Assembly (NCBI RefSeq): GCF_000376445.1
Contig: NZ_AQXI01000001.1
Span: 1,706,962-1,770,961, forward strand
Reading direction: 5' to 3'
Length of the DNA: 64,000 nt
Origin: Haladaptatus paucihalophilus DX253
Lineage (GTDB): Archaea > Halobacteriota > Halobacteria > Halobacteriales > Haladaptataceae
Below, one piece after another: positions 17,177-37,458 of this stretch. The notes under the pieces are model-generated. The model did no database searches, was not told the DNA's origin, and saw only the letters and a program-made list of their open reading frames with translations. Both the position numbers and the translations under genes were made by a program. Each line of letters starts with the position of its first letter. Position 1 is the stretch's first letter.

Positions 17177-17280
17177 GAAGCAAGACGGTCCTGCTCACTC
17201 ACTCCGTTCGTTGCGCGGGCGTGCGACTTGCAGGCTTCGAATCCTGTGCTCGTCGCTCGTCACGTCCGTTCCTAACGAAC

Positions 17281-17354
17281 GAGCACGATGGGATTCGAAC
17301 CCACGGCCGTCGGATTAGAAGTCCGACGCTCTATCCAGACTGAGCTACGTGCCC
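17281..17354 (-). tRNA. tRNA-Arg (anticodon TCT)
   Basis: Read on the minus strand, the gene starts GGGCACGTAGCTCAGTCTGG. It has a D-arm (GCTC...GAGC), an anticodon stem GTCGG/CCGAC around loop ACTTCTAA with anticodon TCT, T-arm GTGGGTTCGAATCCCAT and acceptor end CGTGCTC. The acceptor helix forms 7 pairs with one G-U. No intron is present and CCA is not encoded. It decodes AGA (and AGG by wobble). Confidence 0.95.
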
Positions 17355-24189: not shown

Positions 24190-25308
24190 ATGTTCGACAG
24201 TCTGAAGGATAAGCTGAGCGGGTTCCGTAAGGACGTCGAGGAGACGACCGAGGAGAAGGCCGAGGAGGCCGACGAAGCGGACGCCGACGCGGACGCTGAA
24301 GCGGTCGAGGAAACGGTCGAAACGGAACCCGCGGAGACGGAGACGACACCCGAGCCGGAATCGACGGACGACTCCGACTCGAAGGACGAAGAGTCCGGCA
24401 ACGGGCGCGGCGGTTTCGCCCAGAAGGCCAAATCGTTCGCTCGCGGTGAAATCGTCATCGAGGAGCAGGACGTCGAGGACCCGCTCTGGGAACTCGAAAT
24501 GGCGCTGCTCGAAAGCGACGTCGAGATGAGCGTCGCACAGGAGATGCTCGACGGCATCCGCAACGACCTGGTCGGCGCGACCCGCAAGTTCAGCGCCGAA
24601 ACGGGTGATGTCGTCGAGGACGCCCTACGCGATTCCCTGCTGTCGGTCATCAGCGTCGGGCAGTTCGACTTCGACCAGCGCGTCGCCGAGGCGGACAAAC
24701 CGCTCGTCATCATCTTCACCGGCGTCAACGGCGTCGGGAAGACGACGAGCATCGCCAAGCTATCGCGGTACTTCGAGGAGCGCGGCTACTCCTCGGTGAT
24801 GGCGAACGGCGACACCTACCGCGCCGGTGCGAACCAGCAGATTCGGGAGCACGCGGACGCGCTCGACACGAAACTCATCGCCCACGAGCAGGGAGGCGAC
24901 CCCGCCGCCGTCATCTACGACGCGGTGGAGTACGCCGACGCCCACGACATCGACATCGTGCTGGGCGACACTGCAGGTCGCCTGCACACCAGCGAAGGCC
25001 TGATGGACCAGTTGGAGAAAATCGGCCGCGTCGTGGACCCCGACATGACCATCTTCGTGGACGAGGCCGTGGCCGGGCAGGACGCCGTGCAGCGCGCGAA
25101 GGAGTTCGACGAGGCCGCCGAAATCGACGGCTCGATTCTGACGAAGGCCGACGCCGACTCGAAGGGCGGTGCCGCCATCTCCATCTCGCACGTCACGGGC
25201 AAGCCCATCCTGTTCCTCGGAACCGGACAGGGCTACGACGACATCGAGCAGTTCGACCCCGAACGGATGGTCGAACGACTGCTCGGCGACGAGGAAGAAG
25301 AGGAGTAA
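24190..25308 (+). CDS. ftsY: Signal recognition particle receptor FtsY
   Basis: The 372-residue protein starts MFDSLKDKLSGFRKDVEETT and has an acidic N-terminal extension (about 1-90, Glu/Thr/Asp-rich) in place of a membrane anchor. The NG domain follows: GTPase G1 TGVNGVGKTTSIAKL near 175, DTYRAGANQQI, DTAGRLHTSEGLM, TKADADSKGGAAISI and a GTGQGYDD late motif. It docks ribosome-bound Srp54 at the translocon. It is the last gene of the aif6-pfdA-ftsY block and ends just before the structured element at 25340. Confidence 0.97.
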   Translation: MFDSLKDKLSGFRKDVEETTEEKAEEADEADADADAEAVEETVETEPAETETTPEPESTDDSDSKDEESGNGRGGFAQKAKSFARGEIVIEEQDVEDPLWELEMALLESDVEMSVAQEMLDGIRNDLVGATRKFSAETGDVVEDALRDSLLSVISVGQFDFDQRVAEADKPLVIIFTGVNGVGKTTSIAKLSRYFEERGYSSVMANGDTYRAGANQQIREHADALDTKLIAHEQGGDPAAVIYDAVEYADAHDIDIVLGDTAGRLHTSEGLMDQLEKIGRVVDPDMTIFVDEAVAGQDAVQRAKEFDEAAEIDGSILTKADADSKGGAAISISHVTGKPILFLGTGQGYDDIEQFDPERMVERLLGDEEEEE

Positions 25309-25339: not shown

Positions 25340-25503
25340 GAGAGTGGCGACACAACCGCTTTCGGGACGCGCGATGGCGAACGATTCGCGCCAATCGCGC
25401 GAATCGTTCCCGTGCCCGGGGAGGTAAGGGGACGCCGAGGGCGGGTGGCCGTGCGGTTCCGGCCACCCGTCCGCATGCGGTTGCGGTCGTTCATTGTGCC
25501 TAG
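25340..25503 (+). ncRNA. Candidate structured RNA, copy A (unrecognised family)
   Basis: This intergenic element shares with 36536-36689 the blocks CCGCTTTC, GGACGCGCGA, a 31-base core at 25412-25442 (GTGCCCGGGGAGGT, one variable base, AGGGGACGCCGAGGGCG) and CGTCCGCATGCGGT. Outer helix CAACCGC/GCGGTTG (25353-25359 with 25477-25483); second helix GGACG/CGTCC (25365-25369 with 25468-25472). Hairpin 1 is a perfect 12-bp stem GAACGATTCGCG/CGCGAATCGTTC with a 7-base loop (25379-25409). Hairpin 2 is CGGGTGGCC/GGCCACCCG (25442-25469). The stems differ from copy B but stay paired. The strand is inferred from a T-rich stretch about 25 bases upstream. It fills most of the gap between ftsY and trmG10. 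Confidence 0.7.
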
Positions 25504-25660
25504 TCGCTGCGGTCTAGATCGCCAAATCGAACGGCGCTGGAGTAGTGACGGAACCACCACCAAACCCCGAACGAGCACTTCCTCGTCCCCGTCGTGATTC
25601 GCAATCCCCAAGACGACGGCCCCACTCCCCTCGAACGAAACCGGACGACGGAGAAATATC

Positions 25661-26629
25661 GTGTACGTACTGGAACTCGGCGGACAAGACGACGAATTCG
25701 CGGCGTGCGAAGCGGCGAGCGCGGCGAGCGGGGTGGAACTCGTCGCGCCCGGCCTCGCGCGCGCGGCGACGATTACGGAGCGCGTTTCCAGCCTCGCGTA
25801 CACCCACCGCGCGAGCGAGTTGGTCGGAACGACAGACGCCGACGTGGCGAGCGCCCGAACGTTGCTCTCCGCCGCGCCGATAGAGCGCGAGGGGACGGTT
25901 GCGGTGCGTGCGCGCGCGGTCCGCGAGACGGCCGACGTCAGCACCCAGCAGGCCGAACGCGAGTTGGGGCAGGTGCTCGTGGACCGCGGCTTCGCCGTGG
26001 ACTTGGACGACCCCGACCACGAACTCCGAGCGACGTTCTCCGGGGACCTGTGTGCGCTGGGGTGGCTGGAAACCGAGAGCGTGCGCGACTACGGCACGCG
26101 CAAACCGACCGACCGGCCGTTTTTCCAGCCCGGAAGTATGGACCCGTTGCTCGCACGCGCGTTGGTGAACATCGCCGGAGCAAGAGCGGGAACGACGCTC
26201 CTCGACCCGATGTGCGGGACGGGCGGCGTGCTCATCGAGGCCGCGCTGGTCGGTGCGCGGCCGCTCGGTGCCGACGCACAGGAGAAGATGGTCCGCGGGG
26301 CAGCCGAAAACCTCGACCACTACGCACCGGACGCCGCCGCGGCCACGGTTCGCGGCGACGCGACGCACCTGCCGTTCCCCGACGACGCCATCGACGGCGT
26401 GGTGTTCGACGCGCCCTACGGCAGGCAGTCGAAGATAGCGAACCTCGACCTCGACGACCTCGTTGCCGGTGCGCTCGCGGAGGCGCGACGAGTCGCCTCC
26501 CGCGCCGTCGTCGTCGGCGACCGCTCGTGGGCGAACGAAGCGACCGACGCGGGGTGGAACGTCGAAAACCAGTTCGAGCGGCGAGTGCATCGGTCGCTGA
26601 CGCGGTACGTCGTGGTGCTCTCGCGCTGA
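25661..26629 (+). CDS. tRNA (guanine10-N2)-dimethyltransferase TrmG10 family
   Basis: A 322-residue enzyme read from a GTG start (product begins MYVLELGGQDDEF). The N-terminal THUMP region (about 50-160) binds tRNA. The Rossmann methyltransferase half has motif I LLDPMCGTGGVLIEAALVGA near 180 and the N2-methylation catalytic motif VVFDAPYGRQSKI near 245 (DAPYG in place of D/N-PPY). The family dimethylates G10 of tRNA in archaea. The start lacks a clear Shine-Dalgarno and the region immediately before is GAGAAATATC, so leaderless or very short leader translation is possible. Confidence 0.9.
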   Translation: MYVLELGGQDDEFAACEAASAASGVELVAPGLARAATITERVSSLAYTHRASELVGTTDADVASARTLLSAAPIEREGTVAVRARAVRETADVSTQQAERELGQVLVDRGFAVDLDDPDHELRATFSGDLCALGWLETESVRDYGTRKPTDRPFFQPGSMDPLLARALVNIAGARAGTTLLDPMCGTGGVLIEAALVGARPLGADAQEKMVRGAAENLDHYAPDAAAATVRGDATHLPFPDDAIDGVVFDAPYGRQSKIANLDLDDLVAGALAEARRVASRAVVVGDRSWANEATDAGWNVENQFERRVHRSLTRYVVVLSR

Positions 26630-26642
26630 GAAGGCGTCGAGT

Positions 26643-27137
26643 TCAGCTCATTTTGCCCGTCGCCGACAGCAGCGGCGGGACGAGAAGACCGAGGACGGCA
26701 CCGTAGACGAGGTGGGCCAACAATCCCGACGGATGGAGATTCGGCACGAGCGGTGCCGCCGGAACGTCGGAAATCATCAATCCGAGCGGGAGGACGATTC
26801 CCGCGCCGACGACCCAGAGCACGAGGCTGTATGCCATGCCGGAGGCGACGCTCCGGGAAACACCGCCGACTTTCGTCCCGAGCGGGGATTTCGTGACGAG
26901 GAACGCGAACAGCACGCCGAAAACGGTTCCGTGAACGAGGTGGACGACCCACCCCATGAGCGACCCCTGAAGGTTGTAGAGCGCCGCGGCCGCGTTCGTG
27001 ACGATGAACGGGCGGAAGTATATCCAAACGGGAGCCATCACGGCGGCGGCGACGAGTCCGGCGATGCCCCCGCTGAGCAGTATCCCGATGCCGGTGTCGG
27101 TTCGTCCCTCGACGCGAAGTGACGTTTGCGTTGACAT
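26643..27137 (-). CDS. Four-helix membrane protein of unknown function
   Basis: The start MSTQTSLRVEGRTDTGIGIL gives 164 residues. Four hydrophobic segments are seen: GILLSGGIAGLVAAAVMAPV, LVHGTVFGVLFAFLV, GMAYSLVLWVVGAGIVLPLG and LLAHLVYGAVLGLLVPPLL. The second and fourth share the pattern HLV(H/Y)G-x-V-(F/L)G, so it may be an internal duplication. It is convergent with trmG10 and divergent from the APC permease. No family is recognised. Confidence 0.75.
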   Translation of the reverse strand: MSTQTSLRVEGRTDTGIGILLSGGIAGLVAAAVMAPVWIYFRPFIVTNAAAALYNLQGSLMGWVVHLVHGTVFGVLFAFLVTKSPLGTKVGGVSRSVASGMAYSLVLWVVGAGIVLPLGLMISDVPAAPLVPNLHPSGLLAHLVYGAVLGLLVPPLLSATGKMS

Positions 27138-27301
27138 GGACACGATAGCTTCGCCGAAGGACGTGTTAGTCTCCCTGCTTGCCATGGCATGCTTTCGTTC
27201 CGGGGGAACGGCGGTGATATCGAGCGCGTCGTGGCGGGGATTTGATGGTTGCTGTAGCAAGCAATGGATGTTTGCTGAAAGTCGGCTTACGGGGAAACAG
27301 C

Positions 27302-28777
27302 ATGGGAAAGCTCGGTCTCAAAGAGGCAGTAGCGATGGCTGTCGGCGGGATGATCGGAGGTGGTATCTACTCCGCCTTCGGCCTCGTCGTCTCCATCTCG
27401 GGACGCTTATCGTGGATCGCGTTCCTGCTCGCCGGAATCGTGGCACTCAGCGCGGGGTACAGTTACATCAAGATGAACCAGTACGTCGGCGACCGCGGCG
27501 GCGCGCCGACCTATTTTCACGACCTGTTCGGCGACACGATGCTGACGGGGATGGTGGGGTGGACGCTCCTGTTCGGATACATCGTCTCGATGGCGCTGTA
27601 CGCCTACGCGTTCTCGTCGTTCTTCACGAAGCTGTTCGGTCGGCTCGCGTTCAATCAGATACCCATCGCAAATCTGATTTCCATCCTCGTCATCGGGGCG
27701 TTCGTCGGACTCAACCTGATGGGAGCCGGTTCGACCGGCAAAGCCGAGGACTTCCTCACGTTCTTCAAAGTCGCCGTCATCGGCGGCTTCGGAATCTGGG
27801 GCGTTTACTTCGCCGTCACGGGCAACATCTTCCAGCCGGGATTCTACGAGTTCATGCTCAACCCGACCATCGGCATCGCGGACCCGTTCCTCGGCGCGGC
27901 GATGTCGTTCGTGGCGTTTCAGGGCTGGCAGTTGTTGCTGTACGACCAAGATAAGTTCAGCAACCCGGAAGAGACGATTCGGAAAGCCATCTACATCGCC
28001 ATCCCGGTGGCGACCCTGCTGTACGTCCTCGTCGCGTTCACGACGACGAGCATCCTCGAACTGCCCGTCATCATGGTCAGCCCGGAAACGTCGCTGCTGT
28101 ACGCCGCGCTGCCGTTCGCGGGACAGCTCGGAGCGCTCCTCATCGGGTTCTCCGCGCTGTTTTCGACCGCGAGCGCGGTCAACGCGACGCTATTCAGCAG
28201 CGCGCAGTTCTCCCGGGAACTCATCGAAATCGGCGTCCTCCCGGACCTGACCGGCGTGGAAAGCGACGGCGGAGACGGGAGCAGTAGCGAGAGCGGAAGT
28301 GACGGCAGTGACGGGAGCGATAGCAGTGACAGCGACGGCAGCAACAGCGATAGCAGTAATGACAGCAGCAACAGCAACAGTAACAGCGACGACGGAAACA
28401 GCGACGAAAGCAGCGACAGCGACGGGAATCAGATTCCCTCGGGAATCGTCATCGGTCTCGGCGTGCTGTCGATGGCGTTCGCGGTGTACGGGAGCCTGAT
28501 GAGCATCACGACGTTCGCGTCGCTCGCGTTCATCGCCGTCTTCGGCGGCGTGAGCTACGTCGCATACCGGGAACGTGACAACCTCGACATCCATCCGACG
28601 ATACCCGTCGTGGGCACCGTCGGTTGTACGCTCTTCTTCCCGGTGTTGCTGTACGACCTGTACGTGCACAGTTCGTCCACGTTCTGGCTGGTCGTCGTCA
28701 TCGGCCTGCTCGTGGTCGGCTCCGAACTGGTGTACTTCAAATTCGCCGGTGCGCAGACCGGAGGTGCGCAATCATGA
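27302..28777 (+). CDS. APC-superfamily permease with Ser/Asp/Gly insert
   Basis: A 491-residue permease beginning MGKLGLKEAVAMAVGGMIGG; the motif GGMIGGGIYSAFG in helix 1 is typical of APC amino-acid transporters. About 12 transmembrane helices. Between helices near 318 and 377 lies a 57-residue hydrophilic insert made only of Ser, Asp, Gly, Asn and a few Glu. It is coded by repeats of AGCGACGGC/AGCAGTGAC type at about 28258-28431. After the insert the helices resume with QIPSGIVIGLGVLSMAFAVY. The gene overlaps the following substrate-binding protein by 4 bases (ATGA). Substrate is unknown; peptide or amino acid is inferred. Confidence 0.88.
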   Translation: MGKLGLKEAVAMAVGGMIGGGIYSAFGLVVSISGRLSWIAFLLAGIVALSAGYSYIKMNQYVGDRGGAPTYFHDLFGDTMLTGMVGWTLLFGYIVSMALYAYAFSSFFTKLFGRLAFNQIPIANLISILVIGAFVGLNLMGAGSTGKAEDFLTFFKVAVIGGFGIWGVYFAVTGNIFQPGFYEFMLNPTIGIADPFLGAAMSFVAFQGWQLLLYDQDKFSNPEETIRKAIYIAIPVATLLYVLVAFTTTSILELPVIMVSPETSLLYAALPFAGQLGALLIGFSALFSTASAVNATLFSSAQFSRELIEIGVLPDLTGVESDGGDGSSSESGSDGSDGSDSSDSDGSNSDSSNDSSNSNSNSDDGNSDESSDSDGNQIPSGIVIGLGVLSMAFAVYGSLMSITTFASLAFIAVFGGVSYVAYRERDNLDIHPTIPVVGTVGCTLFFPVLLYDLYVHSSSTFWLVVVIGLLVVGSELVYFKFAGAQTGGAQS

Positions 28778-30402
28778 CGAAACACGAGGAAAACGGACTG
28801 ACGCGACGGAAACTGCTTGCATCGCTCGGAATTGCGGGCGCGGGCGCCCTGTCGGGCTGTTCGGCCATCGAACGGGTGTCCGGCGGAAACGGCTCGCAAC
28901 TCCGAATCGCCCAACCGCTCACGGCCACGGTCCTCGACCCCGTGGTCATCGAAAGCGTGCCGTCGGCGCAGGTAGCCACGCAGGTGTTCGAAGGCCTGTA
29001 CACCTACGGCGAGGGGACGACGTTGGAACCCGAACTCGCCGACGGCGAACCGAAGGTGAGCCACGGCGGGACGCGGTACGAGGTGTCGCTGAAGTCGGAA
29101 CCGCGGTTCCAAAACGGAAACCCAGTCACGGCGGAGGACGTGAAATACTCGTTCGAAGCGCCGAGCCACCGGGACGGGAACACGTCGTGGCGGCGGGGGA
29201 CGCCGAACAAGTGGGAGGTGGACATGATAGACACCATCGAGACGCCCGACGACCACACGGTGCGGTTCGAACTGTCGTACCCGTACGACGCCTTCCACGA
29301 GGTGCTCACCCGGGCCGTCGTCCCCAAATCGGCCCGCGACCCCGACCCCGAGACGTTCGCCAAAAACCCGGTCGGCTCCGGGCCGTTTCAGGTGGACCGG
29401 TTCGTGCCCCAGAAGTACGCGATTCTGACGCGCTGGGACGACTACTGGGACTCGCCGAAGGCCGCAATCGACCGGTTGAAGTTCGTCTCGGAGTACTCGG
29501 GGCTGTCGCGGACGATGAGCCTGAAGACGGGGCAAAACCAGCTAGTCGAGGAGGTAGAGCCCCACCTCTGGAAGGCGACGAACGACCAACCGAACGCGAC
29601 CGTGAAATCCAGCGAGAGCTACGATTACACGTTCCTCGGCTTCAACTGCAACGGCGGGCCGACCTCGGAGGAGAAAGTCCGGAAGGCGGTCGATTACTGC
29701 GTCAACTTCGACGAGATGGTGGAGAACATCCTCCGTCCGGCGGGCGAGCGCACGTACAGCCCGCTTCCACACCAGTTGGCCGAGGAGTGGGACATGCCCG
29801 TCAACGAGTGGAAGCGGATACCCAACGAGCGGAACATCGAGAAAGCGCGAACGCTGTTCCGCGACGCGGGCGTCGAGGCGTGGGCACCGAAGATAGCCGT
29901 TCCGGCGTCGAAGAGTTCCGGCGACGAGCTGCTGATGATGATGGCGAACGCCGTAAAGCAGGGGCTGACGCTCGCCGGGTTCCAGCAGGCCAGCGTCGAG
30001 AAGTACTCGTGGTCGGTGTTCCACGACAAAATCGTCTCGGGGTCGCCGAGCGACTACCACATGTTCGTCACGGAGTGGTCGGCGTTTCCCGACCCGGACG
30101 CCTACGTCTATCCCCTGTTCCACCAGCGGGCGGAGGGCGAGACGAACGGCGTGTTCTACAAGAACGACGACGTGATGGAGAAGATACTGAACGCGCGGAA
30201 ATCGGACGTGCACGCGAAGCGGAGGAAACTCTACGAGGAGACCATCACGACCCTGCTGGAGGACCGCGTGCACCTGCCGATATACCAGCCGAAGAACGCC
30301 TTCGGGGTGAAAAAGGACCTCGACGACTTCCAGCTGTCCCCGATGTCGGAGGAGAACCCGCGGTTCGTCGGTTCGGAGTATCGGGTCACGGTCGGCGAGT
30401 AA
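28774..30402 (+). CDS. Oligopeptide-type substrate-binding lipoprotein
   Basis: A protein of 542 residues with a Tat-type lipoprotein signal: TRRKLLASLGIAGAGALSGC, lipobox Cys near residue 29. The mature part matches family 5 extracellular solute-binding proteins, including QPLTATVLDPVVIESVPSAQ, VFEGLYTYGEGTTLEPELAD and KYSFEAPSHRDGN; these usually serve ABC peptide transporters. No ABC ATPase or ABC permease is near. Instead it is translationally coupled (ATGA) to the APC permease upstream. It would be held outside the membrane by its lipid. Confidence 0.9.
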   Translation: MTKHEENGLTRRKLLASLGIAGAGALSGCSAIERVSGGNGSQLRIAQPLTATVLDPVVIESVPSAQVATQVFEGLYTYGEGTTLEPELADGEPKVSHGGTRYEVSLKSEPRFQNGNPVTAEDVKYSFEAPSHRDGNTSWRRGTPNKWEVDMIDTIETPDDHTVRFELSYPYDAFHEVLTRAVVPKSARDPDPETFAKNPVGSGPFQVDRFVPQKYAILTRWDDYWDSPKAAIDRLKFVSEYSGLSRTMSLKTGQNQLVEEVEPHLWKATNDQPNATVKSSESYDYTFLGFNCNGGPTSEEKVRKAVDYCVNFDEMVENILRPAGERTYSPLPHQLAEEWDMPVNEWKRIPNERNIEKARTLFRDAGVEAWAPKIAVPASKSSGDELLMMMANAVKQGLTLAGFQQASVEKYSWSVFHDKIVSGSPSDYHMFVTEWSAFPDPDAYVYPLFHQRAEGETNGVFYKNDDVMEKILNARKSDVHAKRRKLYEETITTLLEDRVHLPIYQPKNAFGVKKDLDDFQLSPMSEENPRFVGSEYRVTVGE

Positions 30403-30484
30403 GGTGACAGGGGAGTCAGAGAAGTAGCGGTGAGACGGGTCGGGCATCAATATCTTTTCAAACTCGTAGGGGGGACACCCACCC

Positions 30485-31477
30485 ATGAAGCAGTACCTCG
30501 GACTCGTCGAGGACGTCCTCCGGGACGGGACGTACAAGCCCAATCGAACCGGCGTGGACACGATTTCGACCTTCAGCCAGCACTACGAGGTGGACCTGCG
30601 CGAGGGGTACCCCTTGCTGACCACGAAGAAGATGGACGGGTTCCGCTGGGACTCGATGCTCCACGAACTCCTCTGGTATCTCTCCGGCGAGGAGCACATC
30701 CGGAACCTCCGCGAGAAGACCGGCATCTGGAACGAGTGGGCCGACGAGGACGGCACCCTCGACACGGCCTACGGCCGATTTTGGCGACGGTTCCCGGTCC
30801 CCGAGGAGGGACTGCCGGGCGAATCGTGGCCCGAGGCGGACCACCGCTGGATGAACGAGGACGGAACGTTCGACCAGATTCAGTACCTCATCGACGGCCT
30901 CGACGAGAATCCGAACTCCCGTCGCTTCGTCGTCTCCGCGTGGCATCCCGCGAACGCGGCCGTCTCGACGCTCCCGCCGTGTCACTACACCTTCGTCGTC
31001 AACGTGCAGGGCGACACACTGAACCTCCACCTCACCCAGCGCTCGGGCGACGTGGCGCTCGGCATCCCGTTCAACGTCGCGGCCTACGCCCTGCTGGCGA
31101 CGGTGCTCGCCCGCCAGACCGGCTTCGAGGTCGGGAAGTTCGCCCACACCATCGTGGACGCGCACGTCTACTGCGGCGAAGGCGACCGCGGGGAGTGGTA
31201 CCGCGACAACCTCGAAGACCTCCAGACGCGTCTCGCCGACGTTACCCAAAAATCCGAGTACGAGGAGGTCCGTGAGTGGCTCGAATCCGAAGCCCCCGAG
31301 GAGGAGACGGAGGCGATGGACCACGTGCCGGGGCTGCTGACCCAACTCTCGCGCACCCCGAAATCTCGGCCCGAAATCGAGGTGGCGGCGGATTCCATCG
31401 ACGAGTTGACCTACGACGACATCGTGCTCCGGGAGTACGACGCCCACCCCGGCATCAAATTCAGCGTGGCCGAATGA
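30485..31477 (+). CDS. thyA: Thymidylate synthase ThyA
   Basis: The 330-residue enzyme starts MKQYLGLVEDVLRDGTYKPN. Conserved blocks are NRTGVDTISTFSQHYEVDLR, the catalytic Cys near residue 166 in STLPPCHYTFVVNV, LHLTQRSGDVALGIPFN and FAHTIVDAHVYCGEG. It is about 65 residues longer than the E. coli enzyme; extra sequence lies at about 100-135 and 240-290. It makes dTMP from dUMP and methylene-THF. The next gene, dihydrofolate reductase, overlaps by 4 bases and regenerates THF, so the two enzymes form a cycle. Confidence 0.96.
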   Translation: MKQYLGLVEDVLRDGTYKPNRTGVDTISTFSQHYEVDLREGYPLLTTKKMDGFRWDSMLHELLWYLSGEEHIRNLREKTGIWNEWADEDGTLDTAYGRFWRRFPVPEEGLPGESWPEADHRWMNEDGTFDQIQYLIDGLDENPNSRRFVVSAWHPANAAVSTLPPCHYTFVVNVQGDTLNLHLTQRSGDVALGIPFNVAAYALLATVLARQTGFEVGKFAHTIVDAHVYCGEGDRGEWYRDNLEDLQTRLADVTQKSEYEEVREWLESEAPEEETEAMDHVPGLLTQLSRTPKSRPEIEVAADSIDELTYDDIVLREYDAHPGIKFSVAE

Positions 31478-31953
31478 CCCGTCTCGTCTGCATCGCCGCG
31501 GTCGCCGAAAACGGCGTCATCGGACGCGACGGCGACATGCCGTGGCACTACTCGGCCGACTTGCGCCACTTCAAGGAGACCACGATGGGCCATCCGGTCG
31601 TCATGGGGCGGACGACCTACGAGAGCATCGCGGGGCAACTCGACGGCCCGCTTCCGGGTCGAACCAACGTCGTCCTGAGTCGGTCGAATCCCGACCTGCC
31701 CGAGGAAGTCGTCCTCGTCCACAGCGTCGAGGAGGCGATAGAGACGGTCGAAGAACTGGACGACACAGCCTTCGTCATCGGCGGTGCGACGGTGTACGAG
31801 CAGTTCCTCCCGCACGCGGACGAACTGATTCTGACCGAGATTCACGACGAGTACGAGGGTGATACCCACTTCCCGGAGTGGGACCCGAAAGAGTGGACGG
31901 AAGTCGAGCGCGACGAGCGCGAGGAATTGGATTTCGTTCGCTACGAGCGGTGA
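31474..31953 (+). CDS. folA: Dihydrofolate reductase
   Basis: A 159-residue enzyme, MTRLVCIAAVAENGVIGRDG. The DHFR pattern is intact: DMPWHYSADLRHFKETTMGH with the substrate Asp/Glu helix, VVMGRTTYESI, GRTNVVLSRSNPD, VIGGATVYEQFLP and LTEIHDEYEGDTHFPEWDP. It reduces dihydrofolate with NADPH. Translation is coupled to thyA by ATGA overlap. Its end overlaps by 13 bases the end of the next gene on the opposite strand. Confidence 0.96.
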   Translation: MTRLVCIAAVAENGVIGRDGDMPWHYSADLRHFKETTMGHPVVMGRTTYESIAGQLDGPLPGRTNVVLSRSNPDLPEEVVLVHSVEEAIETVEELDDTAFVIGGATVYEQFLPHADELILTEIHDEYEGDTHFPEWDPKEWTEVERDEREELDFVRYER

Positions 31954-32309
31954 GGAATCGCCGCACGGAGTTTTTTGTCGATTCGAAACCGCACGACGGC
32001 GGCCGCGAACAGCATGGCGACGACCCACTTTGCGAGCGTCGGAACGGGCGCTCGAACGCCGTCGGTGCCGGTGACGATGCCGAGAACCGCCGTTCCGACG
32101 ATGGTCAGCAAGCCGAACAGCGCGATCCGTTTCGGTTTTTCGGGGCGGTAGGACAGACACAGCCACGTCATCAAAAGTGTCGCGCCGAATCCGAGAAAGA
32201 ACAGCGTATCGTAGTACGGACTATCGATTCCGACGACACCGAAGGTCGGAACCGTGAGAGCCCACCCGGTTCCGCTGTAGTACCAAAAAGGGTCGGTGAG
32301 CGTGCCCAT
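31941..32309 (-). CDS. Membrane protein of unknown function (122 aa)
   Basis: A hydrophobic protein of 122 residues with three or four membrane segments (YDTLFFLGFGATLLMTWLCL, IALFGLLTIVGTAVLGIV, VPTLAKWVVAMLFAAAVV). It begins MGTLTDPFWYYSGTGWALTV. The start lies directly after the stop codon of the 32310-32684 gene, so the two are an operon. It converges on folA with overlapping ends. No known family is recognised. Confidence 0.72.
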   Translation of the reverse strand: MGTLTDPFWYYSGTGWALTVPTFGVVGIDSPYYDTLFFLGFGATLLMTWLCLSYRPEKPKRIALFGLLTIVGTAVLGIVTGTDGVRAPVPTLAKWVVAMLFAAAVVRFRIDKKLRAAIPHRS

Positions 32310-32684
32310 CTACGCCTCGCTTCCGCGCCACCGGAGTTTCGGTTTCGCCCACGCGACGACCGCGCCGACGAGAAGGGCGAGGACCCACGTGCCGAGTAGC
32401 GTCGGTTGATTTTTCGCAACGTCTGCGGCCCCGAGAACCCACCAGAGGGAGAAGGTTGCCAACCAACTGGCGATTCCGAACAGCCACACCTGTCCGTACG
32501 AAACCGGAAGCATCCGGAGAGCGACGAGCACGCCGACGATGAGGCCCGGAACGTACACGAGAAGGTTGTCCACCAAACCGGGGCCACTGAGGAAGACGGC
32601 CCAGAGAACGGAAAACGGAAGCGTGAGCATCAGCACGCTGCCGACGACGATGCCGACCTGTTCGAGGCGGCGAGGGAGGGACAT
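32310..32684 (-). CDS. Membrane protein of unknown function (124 aa)
   Basis: A 124-residue protein with about four hydrophobic helices: VGIVVGSVLMLTLPFSVLWA, LVYVPGLIVGVLVALRML, FGIASWLATFSLWWVLGA and TWVLALLVGAVVAWAKP. The start is MSLPRRLEQVGIVVGSVLML. It forms an operon with the next gene downstream, which may act with it. Function is unknown. Confidence 0.72.
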   Translation of the reverse strand: MSLPRRLEQVGIVVGSVLMLTLPFSVLWAVFLSGPGLVDNLLVYVPGLIVGVLVALRMLPVSYGQVWLFGIASWLATFSLWWVLGAADVAKNQPTLLGTWVLALLVGAVVAWAKPKLRWRGSEA

Positions 32685-32727
32685 ACCGTATGGTTGTCAG
32701 TCTGAGAATAAATGCTTTCTTCCCCGC

Positions 32728-33087
32728 TCACTGGGGCGACGGTGGCCCGATGGAGATGAGGTAGGCGAGTCCGCCGATGACGATACCGCCGAGCATGGTG
32801 ACGACGACGTGAATGAAGGTGACGAACCCGGCCGTGCGCCACTTCAGGCGGAAGACGATGTGGAACAGAGAGACGTCCAGCGCGAGCGCGATGAGGACCA
32901 CGAGCGGCGGGAAGTACTGTTGGAGGAGAAACGGCAGGGCGGCTATCGGCGGGCCGACGACGAGCGCGCGCCTGAACGGGATGCTCCCGAGGACGTTTCG
33001 CGCGGCGATGAACCCCGTCAACGAGAGGAACCCCGCCAACAGGAGGTACGTTCCGACGAGCGGCGTCAAGTCACCCAGCAGTGCCAT
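32728..33087 (-). CDS. Membrane protein of unknown function (119 aa)
   Basis: A 119-residue, four-segment membrane protein (TYLLLAGFLSLTGFIAARNV, VVGPPIAALPFLLQQYFPPL, VLIALALDVSLFHIVF, TFIHVVVTMLGGIVIGGLAY). The organisation resembles small haloarchaeal transporters or membrane sensors. It stands 43 bases from its neighbour, so it may belong to the same minus-strand group. No family recognised. Confidence 0.7.
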   Translation of the reverse strand: MALLGDLTPLVGTYLLLAGFLSLTGFIAARNVLGSIPFRRALVVGPPIAALPFLLQQYFPPLVVLIALALDVSLFHIVFRLKWRTAGFVTFIHVVVTMLGGIVIGGLAYLISIGPPSPQ

Positions 33088-33170
33088 ACCCGTGGTTCCG
33101 GACCGAATCGGCTTGTGTATGGCGATGTCACTCCGGAACGATGGACCGCGAAAGGAAAGGAGATGAGACG

Positions 33171-33731
33171 TTATTCCAGCAGACCGAGTTCTTCGAGACG
33201 GGAGACGATTTTATCGACTGCCTGTTCGGCGTCCTCGGGCTTCTTGCCGCCGGTGATGACGAGTTTGCCGGAGCCGAACAGCAGAGCGACGACTTCGGGT
33301 TCGTCGAGACGGTAGACGAGGCCGGGGAACTGCTCGGGTTCGTACTCGATGTTCTCCAAGCCGAGACCGATGGCGATGGCGTTGAGGTTCAGGTTGCGTC
33401 CGAGGTCCGCGCTCGTGACGATGTTCTGGACGACGATTTCGGGGTCGTCGTTGACCTGAATGTTGAGTTCACGAAGCTTGTCGAAGACGATTTCGAGACT
33501 CTCGTGGACGTCGGCCGTGCTCTTCGCGCCGGTACAGACGATTTTGCCGGAGCGGAAGATGAGTGCGGCCGATTTGGGGTTCTGGGTACGGTAGACGAGA
33601 CCGGGGAACTGCTCGGGGTCGTAATCCGCGCCCTCCAAGTCCATAGCGACGCTTTGGAGGTCGAGTTCCTGCCCGATGCCCGTCGAGGCGACCACGTTTT
33701 CAATGTTGATGGTTTCCTTGGGGTCGGTCAT
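33171..33731 (-). CDS. tbp: TATA-box-binding protein
   Basis: The 186-residue protein MTDPKETINIENVVASTGIG is archaeal TBP. Two saddle repeats (about 8-97 and 98-186) each have EQFPGLVYR followed by (L/V)IFRSGK or ALLFGSGK-type sequence. The C-terminus ends EELGLLE with the usual acidic bias. It recognises TATA boxes together with TFB to recruit RNA polymerase. Haloarchaea have several TBPs; this one has the form of the general copy. Its own promoter has strong TATA-like and palindromic elements. Confidence 0.97.
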   Translation of the reverse strand: MTDPKETINIENVVASTGIGQELDLQSVAMDLEGADYDPEQFPGLVYRTQNPKSAALIFRSGKIVCTGAKSTADVHESLEIVFDKLRELNIQVNDDPEIVVQNIVTSADLGRNLNLNAIAIGLGLENIEYEPEQFPGLVYRLDEPEVVALLFGSGKLVITGGKKPEDAEQAVDKIVSRLEELGLLE

Positions 33732-33738
33732 AGCGCGA

Positions 33739-33767
33739 CTTAAATGACGTATTTAAGGTTTATAAAG
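33739..33767 (-). promoter_or_regulatory. tbp promoter: TATA box plus perfect inverted repeat
   Basis: On the coding strand of tbp the TATA box CCTTTATAAA (33759-33768) lies about 28-37 bases before the ATG, as for a leaderless mRNA. Between it and the start is a perfect inverted repeat CTTAAAT-GACGT-ATTTAAG (33739-33757, 7-bp arms, 5-base spacer) that itself looks TATA-like. A factor bound there would cover the transcription start. TBP or a repressor could act here. Confidence 0.6.
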
Positions 33768-33931
33768 GTTGGTAGTCCAGACTGACACGACGAAATCGGC
33801 CTTTATGAGCGACCGACGAACGAAATCCTGATGTAGGAGGTTTATTAGTCGGGTTTTCCGTATTTCGAATCGAATCCCGTCGATATTCCATGGCGCAGAC
33901 CTTAACAGTGCGCCGCCCCAATCGGCGGGTA

Positions 33932-34663
33932 ATGAGCGACGAGCGAAGTCATAAATTCTCGGAGGGGACAGGCTTTGACGACCCGTACGAAGGGTTCGAT
34001 TTGGACCCGCCGGAACTCGAAGTGAACCCGGAAGAGGTGGACCCGGTTGACTCCCGCGTCGTCACCGACCTCCTCGACCAGCAGTCGATTCCGCGCGACA
34101 AGGTGTCAGTGGGCGACCTCATCGAGGTCGGTCTGAGCTACACGCGGATAAATCGCTTCGAAGAGGCGACGGAAACGTTCGAGCGCGCGGCGCGTTTCGC
34201 CGACGATGGGTCGCGCGAGGAACAGGAGGCGTGGACGAACAAGGGCGTCGCGCACGCCGAACTCGAAGAGTGGGACGAAGCCATCAGCGCGTACCGCGAA
34301 TCCATCCACATCGACGACGACAGCGAACACGCCGCGACGGCGGAGACCAACCTCGCGTACGCACTTTGGGAGTCGGGACGAACCGAGCAGGCGCTCGAAC
34401 ACTCGGAGCGCGCGGTCGAAATCGACCAGCGCTTCCCGCAGGCGTGGTTCAACCGCGGGTTCTTCCTGCTCGAACGCGGCCTCGTGGAGGACGCGGTGAA
34501 CTGCTTCGACAACGCGATTCGACTCGGCTTCCGGAACGCGCACGTCATCGAGGAGAAGGCGCGCGCGCTGGAGGAACTAGGCGAGGACGAGGAAGCAGAG
34601 CGACTCGCCGAGGAGGCGAAAGAAATGCGCAAGGAGGCGGAGGAAGAGCTGGTCCAGGAATGA
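33932..34663 (+). CDS. Tetratricopeptide repeat protein
   Basis: The start MSDERSHKFSEGTGFDDPYE is preferred (243 residues) over an in-frame ATG 42 bases earlier. From about residue 60, helical pairs repeat with TPR spacing: YTRINRFEEATETFERAARF, AELEEWDEAISAYRESIHID, ALWESGRTEQALEHSERAVE and LLERGLVEDAVNCFDNAIRL. The C-terminus is a charged coiled coil (EDEEAERLAEEAKEMRKEAE). TPRs mediate protein contacts; no enzyme domain is present. It overlaps the DUF424 gene by 4 bases. Interaction partner unknown. Confidence 0.88.
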   Translation: MSDERSHKFSEGTGFDDPYEGFDLDPPELEVNPEEVDPVDSRVVTDLLDQQSIPRDKVSVGDLIEVGLSYTRINRFEEATETFERAARFADDGSREEQEAWTNKGVAHAELEEWDEAISAYRESIHIDDDSEHAATAETNLAYALWESGRTEQALEHSERAVEIDQRFPQAWFNRGFFLLERGLVEDAVNCFDNAIRLGFRNAHVIEEKARALEELGEDEEAERLAEEAKEMRKEAEEELVQE

Positions 34664-34950
34664 TACTCAAGGAGCGCGAGACCGGAGAGGGACTGTTGGT
34701 CGCGGTCTGCGACGACGACGTGCTCGGCGAGACGTTCGAGACGGGCGAGATGTCGTTTACCGTGACGGAGGAGTTCTACGGCGGCGACGAGGCCGACGAG
34801 GACGAAGTTGTCCACAGCCTCAACCGCGCCGACGTGGCGAACATCGTCGGCACCGACGCCGTGGCGCTCGCGGTCGAAGCCGGGTTCGTGAACGAGGCGA
34901 ACGTCCTCGAACTGGATTCGACCCGGCACGCGCAGTTCTTGCGGATGTAG
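34660..34950 (+). CDS. DUF424 family protein
   Basis: A small acidic protein of 96 residues, MILKERETGEGLLVAVCDDD. It matches archaeal DUF424, with DVLGETFETGEMSFTVTEEF, ANIVGTDAVALAVEAGFV and LDSTRHAQFLRM as conserved blocks. DUF424 often neighbours translation genes and may bind RNA; this is family-level speculation. It is translationally coupled to the TPR protein by ATGA. Confidence 0.85.
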   Translation: MILKERETGEGLLVAVCDDDVLGETFETGEMSFTVTEEFYGGDEADEDEVVHSLNRADVANIVGTDAVALAVEAGFVNEANVLELDSTRHAQFLRM

Positions 34951-35130
34951 TCAATCGAGGTACGCCGGGACGTTCACCGCGACCAGACAGAGCAGGGACC
35001 CGACGACCGTTCCGACCGCGACCGACAGCAGTCCGGTATGAAACGCGATGGCGGCGAACGCGTGGAACACGCCGACGAACGTGAGGCCGAGAAATATCAT
35101 GCTCGCGCCGAGCCGTCGTTTCGAAACCAT
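34951..35130 (-). CDS. Small two-helix membrane protein (59 aa)
   Basis: The likely start MVSKRRLGASMIFLGLTFVG gives 59 residues with two membrane segments (SMIFLGLTFVGVFHAFAAIA and VAVGTVVGSLLCLVAVNVP). A longer in-frame form would add 36 residues of non-conserved appearance. The stop codon touches that of DUF424. No function can be assigned. Confidence 0.65.
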   Translation of the reverse strand: MVSKRRLGASMIFLGLTFVGVFHAFAAIAFHTGLLSVAVGTVVGSLLCLVAVNVPAYLD

Positions 35131-35248
35131 GCCGAAACGGTGGGGTCGAAGCGACTTAATCCACACCATCGTTCTCGTAACCAAATACGGTTTCGACGGC
35201 CTGTGAAGACCGAAGAAGTGTTCCCACTCGAAACCCAATTCCTACGCA

Positions 35249-36493
35249 ATGGAATCACAGCAATCCGACGCGCTGGATGTGGAACGCATCCGTGAGGATT
35301 TCCCGATTCTTCAGCGGGAGTTCAACGGCAATCAGGTGGTGTACCTCGACAACGCGGCGACCACCCAGACGCCCGAACCCGTCATCGAGAGCATCAGCGA
35401 CTACTACCGGAACTACAACGCGAACGTCCACCGCGGCATCCACCAGTTGAGCCAGGAGGCCTCCATCGCCTACGAGGAGGCCCACGACAAACTCGCCGAG
35501 TTCATCGGCGCGAACGGCCGCGAGGAGATGGTGTTCACGAAGAACACGACCGAATCCGAAAACCTCGTCGCCTACGCGTGGGGACTCAACGAACTCGGTC
35601 CGGGCGATGAGGTCGTCCTGAGCGAGATGGAACACCACGCGTCGCTCGTGACGTGGCAACAGCTCGGCAAGAAGACCGGGGCGGACGTGAAGTACATCCC
35701 CGTGACCGACGAGGGCTACCTCGACATGGAGGCCGCGGAGAAGCTCATCACGGACGATACCAAGATGGTCAGCGTCGTCCACGTCTCGAACACGCTCGGG
35801 ACGACGAACCCGGTGGGCGAACTCGCGGACATCGCGCACGACCACGATTCCTACATCTTCGTGGACGGCGCACAGGCGGTGCCGAACCGTCCCGTGGACG
35901 TGCAGGCCATCGACGCCGACTTCTACGCCTTCTCGGGCCACAAGATGGTCGGGCCGACCGGCATCGGCGGCCTGTACGGCAAGGAACACGTTCTGGAGGA
36001 GATGGAGCCGTACCTCTACGGCGGCGACATGATTCGCAAGGTGACCTACGACGATTCGACGTGGGAGGACCTGCCGTGGAAGTTCGAGGCCGGAACGCCG
36101 AACATCGCACAGGGCATCGCGCTCGCGGCCGCCGTGGACTATCTGGAGGACATCGGCATGGAGCGCGTCCAGCGCCACGAGGAGCAACTCGCCGAATACG
36201 CCTACGACCGCCTGACCGAGGAGGGCGACGTGGAGATTTACGGACCCCCGGCCGACGACCGCGGCGGCCTCGTCTCGTTCAACGTCGATGGCGTCCACGC
36301 CCACGACCTCTCCAGCATCCTCAACGACCACGCCGTCGCAATCCGTGCGGGCGACCACTGTACGCAACCGCTCCACGACAAACTCGGCATCGCGGCCTCC
36401 GCGCGGGCTTCCTTCTACATCTACAACACCCGCGAGGAAATCGACAAACTGGTCGATGCCGTGGACGACGCCCGGCAGTTGTTCGCTCAGTAA
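35249..36493 (+). CDS. sufS: Cysteine desulfurase SufS
   Basis: The enzyme has 414 residues. PLP-binding motifs are HASLVTWQQLGKKTGADVKY near 130, FVDGAQAVPNRPVDVQ near 205 and the lysine in FYAFSGHKMVGPTGIGG near 230. The active-site Cys near residue 371 lies in RAGDHCTQPLHDK. It removes sulfur from cysteine for Fe-S cluster assembly. The usual partner SufU is encoded 3.5 kb downstream (39962-40381). It starts MESQQSDALDVERIREDFPI, with no obvious long 5' leader. Confidence 0.95.
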   Translation: MESQQSDALDVERIREDFPILQREFNGNQVVYLDNAATTQTPEPVIESISDYYRNYNANVHRGIHQLSQEASIAYEEAHDKLAEFIGANGREEMVFTKNTTESENLVAYAWGLNELGPGDEVVLSEMEHHASLVTWQQLGKKTGADVKYIPVTDEGYLDMEAAEKLITDDTKMVSVVHVSNTLGTTNPVGELADIAHDHDSYIFVDGAQAVPNRPVDVQAIDADFYAFSGHKMVGPTGIGGLYGKEHVLEEMEPYLYGGDMIRKVTYDDSTWEDLPWKFEAGTPNIAQGIALAAAVDYLEDIGMERVQRHEEQLAEYAYDRLTEEGDVEIYGPPADDRGGLVSFNVDGVHAHDLSSILNDHAVAIRAGDHCTQPLHDKLGIAASARASFYIYNTREEIDKLVDAVDDARQLFAQ

Positions 36494-36535
36494 GCGGCGT
36501 CATTTCGTCTTTCGAGGTTTTCAACGCACATCCCG

Positions 36536-36689
36536 GAGAGCGACGGCGACGCACCCGCTTTCTGGACGCGCGACGCGGACACCTGCGCCAGCGGTCGGCG
36601 CAGGTGTCCGCGTGCCCGGGGAGGTCAGGGGACGCCGAGGGCGGTTCGCGCAACTCGCGCGAACCGTCCGCATGCGGTATGGACCCTAG
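36536..36689 (+). ncRNA. Candidate structured RNA, copy B (unrecognised family)
   Basis: The second copy of the element at 25340-25503. The core at 36612-36642 differs from copy A at one base. Outer helix CCGC/GCGG (36555-36558 with 36674-36677) and second helix GGACG/CGTCC (36564-36568 with 36665-36669). Hairpin 1 is a perfect 15-bp stem GCGGACACCTGCGCC / GGCGCAGGTGTCCGC with a 7-base loop (36575-36611). Hairpin 2 is CGGTTCGCG / CGCGAACCG with a 7-base loop (36642-36666). Both hairpins share no sequence with copy A. Both copies end a few bases before CCTAG. It occupies the gap between sufS and the HD hydrolase; no gene overlaps it. Confidence 0.7.
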
Positions 36690-36816: not shown

Positions 36817-37458
36817 ATGTCACCGCGAACCCTCCCGGACGAGATTCGACCGCACGCCGAGGAGTACTTCGAAAACGTCGCACCCGCACACGACTGGCAC
36901 CACGTCCAGCGGGTCGCCGCCCTCGCCGAAACGCTCGCCGCCGAGTACGACCCCGACGAGCGAATCCTCTTTTCCGCGGTGTGGTTGCACGACATCGGCC
37001 GGGGGCGCGAGGACCGCGGCGAAATCGACGACCACGCCGAGTGGGGTGCCGAAGAGGCGGGCGAACTCCTCGGCGGATTCGACGTGACGGATTCGGAAAT
37101 CGAGGCCGTCCAGCACTGCATTCGGGCACACCGCTTCTCGAACGACGTGGACGCCGAGACGTTGGAGGCGAAACTGCTGTCCGATGCCGACAACCTCGAC
37201 GCTCTCGGTGCCGTCGGAATCGGGCGCGTCTTCTGCTACGGCGCGGAACACGACCAACCCATGCACGACCCCGACGTGCCCGTCGAGGCCGACAAGACAC
37301 GTTCGGGTGCGACGTCGGTGAACCACTTCCACAAGAAAATCCTCCGACTCCCGGAGCGGATGTACACCGACGCAGGCAAACGCATGGCCGAAGAGCGCCG
37401 GACGTTCGTGGAGGCGTTCGTCGAGCGGTTCGAAGCGGAAGCCGCGGGCGAGCGCTGA
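36817..37458 (+). CDS. HD-domain phosphohydrolase
   Basis: A protein of 213 residues, MSPRTLPDEIRPHAEEYFEN. The HD metal motif is complete: HDWHHVQRV near 28, FSAVWLHDIGRGRED near 58 with the HD pair, HCIRAHRFSNDV near 105, and DADNLDALGAVGIGR near 127 with the last Asp. The family hydrolyses nucleotides or related phosphate esters; YedJ/RdgB-like HD proteins are closest in form. Substrate unknown. It follows the structured RNA copy B by 127 bases. Confidence 0.87.
   Translation: MSPRTLPDEIRPHAEEYFENVAPAHDWHHVQRVAALAETLAAEYDPDERILFSAVWLHDIGRGREDRGEIDDHAEWGAEEAGELLGGFDVTDSEIEAVQHCIRAHRFSNDVDAETLEAKLLSDADNLDALGAVGIGRVFCYGAEHDQPMHDPDVPVEADKTRSGATSVNHFHKKILRLPERMYTDAGKRMAEERRTFVEAFVERFEAEAAGER

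Follow-up and report, generated by a model that had tools for sequence, protein, structure and literature searches.

The two elements in a 64,000-nt stretch of Haladaptatus paucihalophilus DX253 (contig NZ_AQXI01000001.1; the window, to whose positions all coordinates refer) belong to a multi-copy family that conserves its fold, with hairpin apices inverted between species and palindromic modules recurring at several loci. We give a probability of about one half to the reading that both are an old, dispersed, non-coding structured repeat of the Haladaptatus chromosome which acts as folded DNA, and we hold this mode of action to be likelier than that of a kink-turn RNA family.

A repeat family of Haladaptatus

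The coordinates of the two elements in the original prediction were right, and their common blocks occur in identical order and spacing (Table 1). As claimed, both avoid genes, lying between likely genes that are housekeeping in kind (from a home-made ORF choice), and a CTAG is found a little 3' of each, where an end near CCTAG had been noted. The domain scan of flanking proteins covered 37 of 44 proteins and its tally rests on 25 of 85 matched families, the matches to UPF0020 (an RMKL-like methyltransferase family) and Aminotran_5 being tallied without assignment to single flanking proteins. In copy 2, the final two bases of hairpin 1 overlap the possible P1 strand.

Table 1. Features of the two window copies and their flanking genes
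Feature	Position	Strand	Basis
Copy 1, covariance-model span	25362..25487	+	match of 116 bits
Copy 1, 5' scaffold GGACGC, P1 5' strand	25365..25370	+	putative partner: part of GTGCCC
Copy 1, hairpin 1, module B type (TTCGCGC...GCGCGAA)	25379..25409	+	stem and module comparison
Copy 1, P1 3' strand GTGCCC and G-rich linker GGGGAGGTAAGGGGACGCCGA	25412..25438	+	many invariant alignment columns
Copy 1, hairpin 2, module C type (GCCGTGCGGTTCCGGC)	25439..25472	+	stems, covariation, modules
Copy 1, 3' scaffold GCATGCGGTTGCGGT and tail, CTAG end at 25500-25503	25473..25503	+	sequence
Copy 2, covariance-model span	36561..36680	+	match of 105.7 bits
Copy 2, 5' scaffold GGACGC, P1 5' strand	36564..36569	+	sequence
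Copy 2, hairpin 1, module A type, apex GCCAGCGGTCGGC	36573..36613	+	stem and module comparison
Copy 2, P1 3' strand GTGCCC and G-rich linker GGGGAGGTCAGGGGACGCCGA	36612..36638	+	sequence, alignment
Copy 2, hairpin 2, module B type	36639..36669	+	stems, covariation, modules
Copy 2, 3' scaffold GCATGCGGT and tail, CTAG end at 36686-36689	36670..36689	+	sequence
ftsY (SRP receptor GTPase), flanking	24190..25308	+	ORF; Pfam SRP54 on L039 ortholog; genus orthologs
Methyltransferase gene, presumably tRNA G10 methyltransferase, flanking	25661..26629	+	ORF; UPF0020 among families matched by 37 flanking proteins
Flanking gene, product taken to be a sufS-like cysteine desulfurase	35249..36493	+	ORF; Aminotran_5 among families matched by 37 flanking proteins
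HD-domain phosphohydrolase gene, flanking	36817..37458	+	HDIG above its cut-off; PRK10119 below its

The elements had been described as a pair, but the genome of the window has 6 covariance-model matches. The training set of the model includes both window copies, which are well separated from the next-best match in the window (15.6 bits). At E ≤ 0.1 the model finds 48 copies in 8 of the 9 Haladaptatus genomes, three of them with E > 0.004 and two further partial matches being left out of all 48-copy counts; at E ≤ 0.001 there are 45 matches in 8 of the 392 genomes of the order, all eight Haladaptatus, and none among the 383 non-Haladaptatus genomes. One genome of another genus of the same family (G025) has a match of 29.8 bits (E 0.011), missing at the stricter threshold. 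Genomes with the element carry 2–11 matches each, and the element, about 125 bp long, has a model span of 80–178 nt that varies with hairpin length and is too short for transposase coding. Six of the eight matches of a contig-wide pattern search are likewise in Haladaptatus, the other two (Streptomyces and a Clostridia MAG) being set aside as chance. No matches resulted from comparing copy 1 with plasmids and copy 2 with phages, or from searching viral contigs with one exact element pattern. The repeat is known so far only in Haladaptatus.

The predicted lack of an Rfam family held against Rfam 15, the sole match of the window at gathering score being a tRNA-Arg; at E up to 5, three element loci gave two weak, chance-like matches far below gathering scores. 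No description of the repeat was recognised in the open-access literature at the level of titles and the beginnings of abstracts.

Fold and covariation

A typical copy has a scaffold of about 50–60 nt (GGACGCGC / GYGCCCGGGGAGG-N3-GGGGAC / GCAYGCGGT) around two near-perfect palindromes, which it holds and which are largely exchangeable in sequence. None of 200 dinucleotide shuffles folds as well as either window copy (z of −3.59 and −5.41). In the alignment of 28 copies (A4; 22 of the 50 matches left out, and L003 absent from the first alignments), 93.1% of stem cells are paired and 16 of 22 pairs show a double change, equalled by none of 500 shuffles. The covariance-model check that had been proposed thus returned many copies with double changes, dispersed in Haladaptatus. 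What stands of the original prediction is a structure-conserving family absent from Rfam with two strongly covarying hairpins; an RNA product is putative.

Of the two outer helices that had been drawn, one did not survive. GGACG/CGTCC has a double change in none of its 5 pairs, and 320 of 500 shuffles pair equally well; it was rejected, being fully paired in 12 of the 28 aligned copies against 23 for the rival hairpin-2 base GGGCG/CGYCC. Twelve of 48 copies have the other one, with CCGC immediately upstream and GCGG at the 3' end. Stem lengths had been underestimated, hairpin 1 having 13 and 17 bp and each hairpin 2 having 13 pairs including one G.T. In P1, a predicted helix for which two registers were compared, column pair 7-56 is C-G in 15, U-A in 5 and unpaired in 6 of the 28 copies. 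The linker is conserved, one-stranded and G-rich, with many invariant columns.

Hairpin modules and apex inversion

The hairpins of the two copies had been called unrelated; in fact, TTCGCGC-N5-GCGCGAA is found in hairpin 1 of the first copy as well as in hairpin 2 of the second. The majority of hairpins in the family are built from three palindromic modules, A, B and C, which are rare elsewhere: 43, 12 and 8 matches lie inside the elements ±100 nt, as opposed to 2, 2 and 0 in the remaining 174,599 nt, and this favours the DNA reading. With up to two mismatches allowed, apex A occurs in the window at chance level (8 observed, 6.45 expected). The copies of one genome carry differing hairpins. 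In addition, and again in favour of DNA, the apex is reverse-complemented between species at six orthologous hairpins, namely hairpin 2 at PDCD5, RpoL, Gdh and HemC and hairpin 1 at ftsY and HemC.

Template switching is described in PMC8794818 and PMC8604942 as homogenising palindrome arms to perfection and inverting spacers between relatives. Since such switching on DNA can produce perfect, flipping palindromes, covariation alone is no proof of RNA, and apex inversion together with modules common to several loci fits DNA template switching plus exchange among copies. Hairpins that differ between copies and yet pair perfectly, taken originally as the signature of selection on RNA structure, are for these reasons insufficient by themselves. 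In the folded-DNA reading, a replication template switch inside a palindrome would keep the stems perfect and flip the apices, and recombination running through the conserved scaffold would carry modules from one copy to another. The scaffold may be kept by a host factor recognising the folded strand, probably as a G-rich single strand held between two hairpins; recognition would occur at the DNA level, on extruded hairpins or a cruciform, and the element would serve the chromosome as a structural site or a site of recombination, and not act as a transcript.

Strand, promoter and kink-turn signals

A possible but less probable explanation is a multi-copy structured non-coding RNA with P1, a kink-turn at the hairpin 1 junction, the G-rich linker and hairpin 2, bound by L7Ae (the usual archaeal kink-turn binder), whose copies would be in concerted evolution through gene conversion. 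It gains from the strong covariation, from the C-G or U-A pairing in P1 noted above and from the conserved one-strand linker. A strict kink-turn-like pattern (GNY bulge, GA...GA) is present in 15 of 48 copies, a count made with no chance control, and these junctions point, at the level of sequence, towards RNA; the pattern is absent from both window copies, and many copies have ordinary base pairs in its place. A short T-run 3' of the element also speaks for RNA and against DNA, as does the raw fold energy, which for 24 of 28 copies is lower on sense than on antisense, by a mean of 5.4 kcal/mol. Relative to dinucleotide shuffles, however, the sense strand has no extra structure over its complement (mean z −3.35 for sense and −4.03 for antisense, sense being lower in 10 of 28), in favour of DNA. 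As the shuffle-corrected antisense is slightly lower and the sense and antisense energies of individual hairpins are equal, we take the raw advantage of sense to reflect base composition.

G.T mismatches slightly exceed A.C ones, another feature on the RNA side, with 26:14 in 73 distinct stems (p 0.08) and 19:11 in helices aligned over 28 copies (p 0.20). Control RNAs were scored by a nearly identical method that allowed longer loops, and at minimum scores of 5, 6 and 8 (8 being that used for the elements) the ratios were 5:12, 5:11 and 3:6 for SRP RNA and 20:8, 18:7 and 10:3 for RNase P RNA. Because known RNAs diverge to this extent, mismatch type was dropped as a discriminator between RNA and DNA.

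Against an RNA family stands the lack of a promoter signal, in a test of low power: a TATA-like hexamer was found in none of 41 of the 48 upstream regions (7 copies dropped), and matches at 5 of 6 positions occur in 26% of 47 control genes versus 2–12% of element windows, with full matches in neither. Six of the 48 copies form three head-to-head pairs with a spacing of 41–52 bp, which leaves scant space for two promoters; the apex inversions suggest that loop sequence is unimportant, and Rfam has no such family. A narrower version, which we find rather doubtful, is a genus-confined, multi-copy kink-turn RNA with a constant scaffold, whose two hairpin cassettes would be exchanged from locus to locus and inverted where they stand with the fold kept; if true, it would be a modular RNA with exchangeable arms.

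Genomic placement

The genes flanking the 48 copies are oriented (+,+) in 20 cases, (−,+) in 15, (−,−) in 8 and (+,−) in 5, as called with a home-made ORF score that leaves some neighbours doubtful, and this distribution favours the DNA reading. Independent RNA genes would likewise show mixed orientation, which counts against the DNA reading. A riboswitch, leader or 3' UTR structure would suit the window copies, located 54 and 68 nt after a same-strand gene. Such a cis-acting mRNA element is nevertheless very improbable, and largely refuted by the mixed orientation, the left gene having the same direction in 25 copies and the opposite one in 23. The suggestion that copies might sit by related genes also failed, given that position, orientation and kind vary and that neighbour functions are unrelated.

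Common sites adjoin housekeeping genes in several species, with the element in either orientation. Six of the 9 genomes have it downstream of ftsY (a seventh has a weak, decayed match of 20.1 bits, E 0.16), and 7 have it within 0.6 kb downstream of a prenyl synthase gene. Over six cross-clade pairs the scaffold identity is 76–86%, and the flanks on the downstream side show little alignment (z −0.4 to 3.9), in favour of DNA; the upstream flank of ftsY is alignable across clades because it includes coding sequence, a point on the other side. Since core identity is similar for cross-clade orthologs (0.76–0.86) and for different loci (0.76–0.84), vertical descent rests on common position, a point against the DNA reading. 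All 22 copies of genomes G000, G001, G003 and G005 are on contig C1, which makes up 39–68% of those genomes and is a named chromosome in G003 and G005. This placement, the size and range of the family and its common sites count for the DNA reading.

A further candidate is a PATE-like non-autonomous element, consisting of fused IS605-type transposon ends, served in trans by a transposase and now mostly immobile. Elements of this class have palindromes near both ends that are similar to those of IS605-type transposons, and have neither terminal inverted repeats nor a target duplication. Indeed, most copies have two palindromes (the comparisons gave neither exact element ends nor a clean empty site) and all are short, other repeats are inserted within some, 16 of 48 have CTAG no more than 15 nt past the model end, and at one locus the presence of the element varies among species. 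Haloarchaeal PATEs of like layout are described in PMC3119063. On the other hand, neither apex motifs nor model matches at E ≤ 1 occur in the 30 TnpB loci examined (95,865 nt; of 152 TnpB matches), where a core pattern loosened to two mismatches is found twice and CCCTAGC once. Element number and TnpB number are uncorrelated (rho −0.06, p 0.88), many TnpB matches lie on contigs other than C1, the location of all copies in the four genomes tallied, and the unlike hairpins within one genome are contrary to recent copying. We thus keep the repeat out of the PATE class in spite of the resemblance, those 30 loci having neither a model match nor a common palindrome, and regard a PATE-like origin as improbable.

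The repeat offers a one-genus example of turnover in perfect hairpins, whose modules are exchanged and apices inverted while the scaffold stays constant, and a natural test case of RNA covariation versus DNA template switching, which matters for covariation-based discovery of non-coding RNAs. If expressed, it would represent a new archaeal RNA class; if unexpressed, a chromosomal structured repeat with the rare CTAG marking a third of its copies.

Comparison with known systems

Archaeal kink-turn RNAs, with a 3-nt bulge plus tandem G.A pairs between two helices, include RNase P and the H/ACA and C/D guides, the latter two marked by guide boxes and rRNA/tRNA complementarity. By a strict sequence pattern, 15 of 48 copies of the repeat resemble them in having a 3-nt bulge and then GA...GA at a helix junction. 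The repeat differs from them in that the junction is often made of ordinary pairs and matches no Rfam family. REP, BIME and REPIN sequences are short intergenic hairpin repeats of bacteria, some arranged as inverted pairs, and REP/REPIN are mobilised by a RAYT transposase. Short intergenic hairpins are shared with these, and head-to-head pairs (6 of 48 copies) may be, whereas a length of about 125 bp, two hairpins with a G-rich linker, 2–11 matches per genome and an archaeal host are not.

The PATEs of Haloquadratum walsbyi are haloarchaeal, non-coding, palindrome-associated transposable elements, and palindromes, heterogeneous copies, small inserted repeats and a short recurrent terminal oligonucleotide are likenesses to them (PMC3119063). 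Unlike PATEs, the Haladaptatus repeat has swapped stem modules and a conserved scaffold, has neither a model match nor a common palindrome at the 30 TnpB loci examined, and occupies sites common to several species; its copies in the four tallied genomes are on contig C1. Perfect arms and inverted spacers are likenesses to template-switch palindromes (PMC8794818, PMC8604942); the yeast cases are inverted repeats within single genes, whereas in Haladaptatus a multi-copy family is built on a conserved scaffold.

Range and fold of the element

As the original prediction held, the two elements in the window have a common scaffold and a different pair of hairpins each. None of the Rfam matches is convincing. 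A covariance model built from seven copies and searched in 28 genomes of the family returned 49 matches at E <= 0.1, 48 of them in Haladaptatus, where eight of nine genomes (labelled G000, that of the window, to G008) carry the element: G000 six, G001 five, G002 11, G003 five, G004 seven, G005 six, G007 two and G008 six, with none in G006 at this threshold. The one match outside the genus is weak and lies in another genus. A second model from 28 copies, with stricter filters which weak relatives could escape, was run on 392 genomes of the order; its 45 matches at E <= 0.001 fall in eight genomes, every one of the window's genus. An exact pattern is present in H. pallidirubidus, H. litoreus, H. 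halobius and Haladaptatus sp. DYF46.

The proposal of a structure-conserving family with covarying hairpins is borne out by 28 aligned copies, in which 93.1% of the stem cells are paired, double changes occur in 16 of 22 stem pairs and none of 500 shuffles matches the observed pairing, which drops to 29-53% when partners are slid by 1-3 columns. Covariation is concentrated mainly in hairpins 1 and 2, being weaker in P1 (the proposed helix of the 5' scaffold GGACGC with part of GTGCCC), for which more than one register is possible. The outer helix initially proposed, GGACG/CGTCC, did not survive, as it has zero covariation and rivals the base of hairpin 2 for pairing. At the junction beneath hairpin 1 a kink-turn-like pattern, GNY-GA...GA, is seen in 15 of 48 copies, and several others, including both window copies, are paired through.

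Features located in the window
Feature	Position	Strand	Remark
tRNA-Arg	17280-17354	-	anticodon TCT
Element copy 1	25362-25487		hairpins B then C
CTAG after copy 1	25500-25503
Element copy 2	36561-36680		hairpins A then B
CTAG after copy 2	36686-36689

Hairpin modules and strand preference

For the most part the hairpins are modules that can be exchanged. At their apices three types are found repeatedly, namely A (GCCAGCGGTCGGC), B (TTCGCGC-N-GCGCGAA) and C (GCCGTGCGGTTCCGGC), with 43, 12 and 8 matches in the elements plus 100 nt on either side (45 loci) and 2, 2 and 0 in the remaining 174,599 nt of these loci. A fuzzy classifier assigns hairpin 1 to one of these classes in 34 of 48 copies and hairpin 2 in 32, and finds A and B each at both positions. 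With orthology assigned from flanking genes, six hairpins have an apex reverse-complemented between orthologs: both hairpins at the HemC locus, hairpin 2 also at PDCD5, RpoL and Gdh, and hairpin 1 also at ftsY. Products reported for DNA template switching include arm homogenisation and spacer inversion (PMC8604942), and single events are described as able to yield perfect stems and multi-base compensatory changes (PMC8794818); because of this, covariation would not by itself prove an RNA. The perfect hairpins had been taken as a signature of selection on RNA structure: the pairing and covariation are indeed strong, but template switching can produce both, and the six inversions weaken that argument.

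We favour, with a probability of about 0.5, a DNA-level structured repeat. The apex flips, the head-to-head pairs 41-52 bp apart, the lack of sense-strand preference once fold energy is compared with shuffles and, as a weak test, the absence of a visible promoter signal upstream count for this reading and against an RNA family. The latter, which we regard as possible but doubtful, would account for the kink-turn-like junctions, the conserved one-strand linker (G-rich, before hairpin 2), a T-run, a raw fold energy that is lower for the sense strand than for its complement and a mild excess of G.T mismatches, although the mismatch counts are not decisive since G.T:A.C ranges from 3:6 to 10:3 in known RNAs by a nearly identical method.

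Genomic context

The element lies downstream of ftsY in six of nine genus genomes, with a weak, decayed match in a seventh (20.1 bits, E 0.16), and within 0.6 kb downstream of a prenyl synthase gene in seven of nine; at sufS it occurs in the window's genome only. Scaffold identity across clades is 76-86%, with poorly aligning downstream flanks, and is about equal to that between different loci (76-84%), so that the family is kept near a single consensus. A position upstream of related genes is not seen, the flanking genes being of many kinds, mostly housekeeping, in mixed orientation. All 22 copies of G000, G001, G003 and G005, the genomes covered by contig placement (the other four being drafts), are on contig C1, which is a named chromosome in G003 and G005. 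All six G000 matches fall within 460 kb (1.41-1.87 Mb) of its 2.95-Mb C1, and several copies on C1 of G002 and G005 are spaced by ~100-112 kb (G005: 805, 906, 1018 and 1120 kb), which may be chance. Upstream of the RpoL gene of G003 (locus L130), CCGTCCGCATGCG...CCCAGCAATTGCCGTCG resembles by eye a leftover 3' end of the element, with no second-model match at E <= 1.

CTAG, described as rare in haloarchaea and a likely orphan methylase target (PMC6471742), occurs 19 times in the window, where base composition predicts 217 and a second-order model 52. Yet in 16 of 48 copies a CTAG lies no more than 15 nt after the model end, in eight of these exactly at +9, and in six copies one precedes the element by 51-58 nt.

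At some loci the element is preceded by a different structured repeat, CCTTTTRC..CGGTC-(variable hairpin)-CCTGKMAAAAGCTSGACCAAAAGC, which in many cases continues with GCTAGCCC and then the element (loci L064, L068, L073, L078, L079 and L080 by pattern, L049 and L061 by eye). In six loci scanned nothing reached an Rfam gathering score, and the repeat has no match within the 64-kb window. An insert of ~55 nt, ...TACGAGGCAAGCGGTCTGCCTCGATTGCGAGCG..., is common to the linkers of L059, L060, L062, L064, L067, L069, L073 and L078, with a variant in L074, and a further palindromic repeat, GCGAACGGTGAAA...CCGTGAGC, sits inside an element arm in L065 (G000) and L066 (G002).

Comparison with PATEs

We have not filed the element under PATEs because a tie to IS605-type transposons was absent at the 30 of 152 TnpB matches tested; the resemblance to PATEs, as these are described (PMC3119063), lies in layout and habitat.
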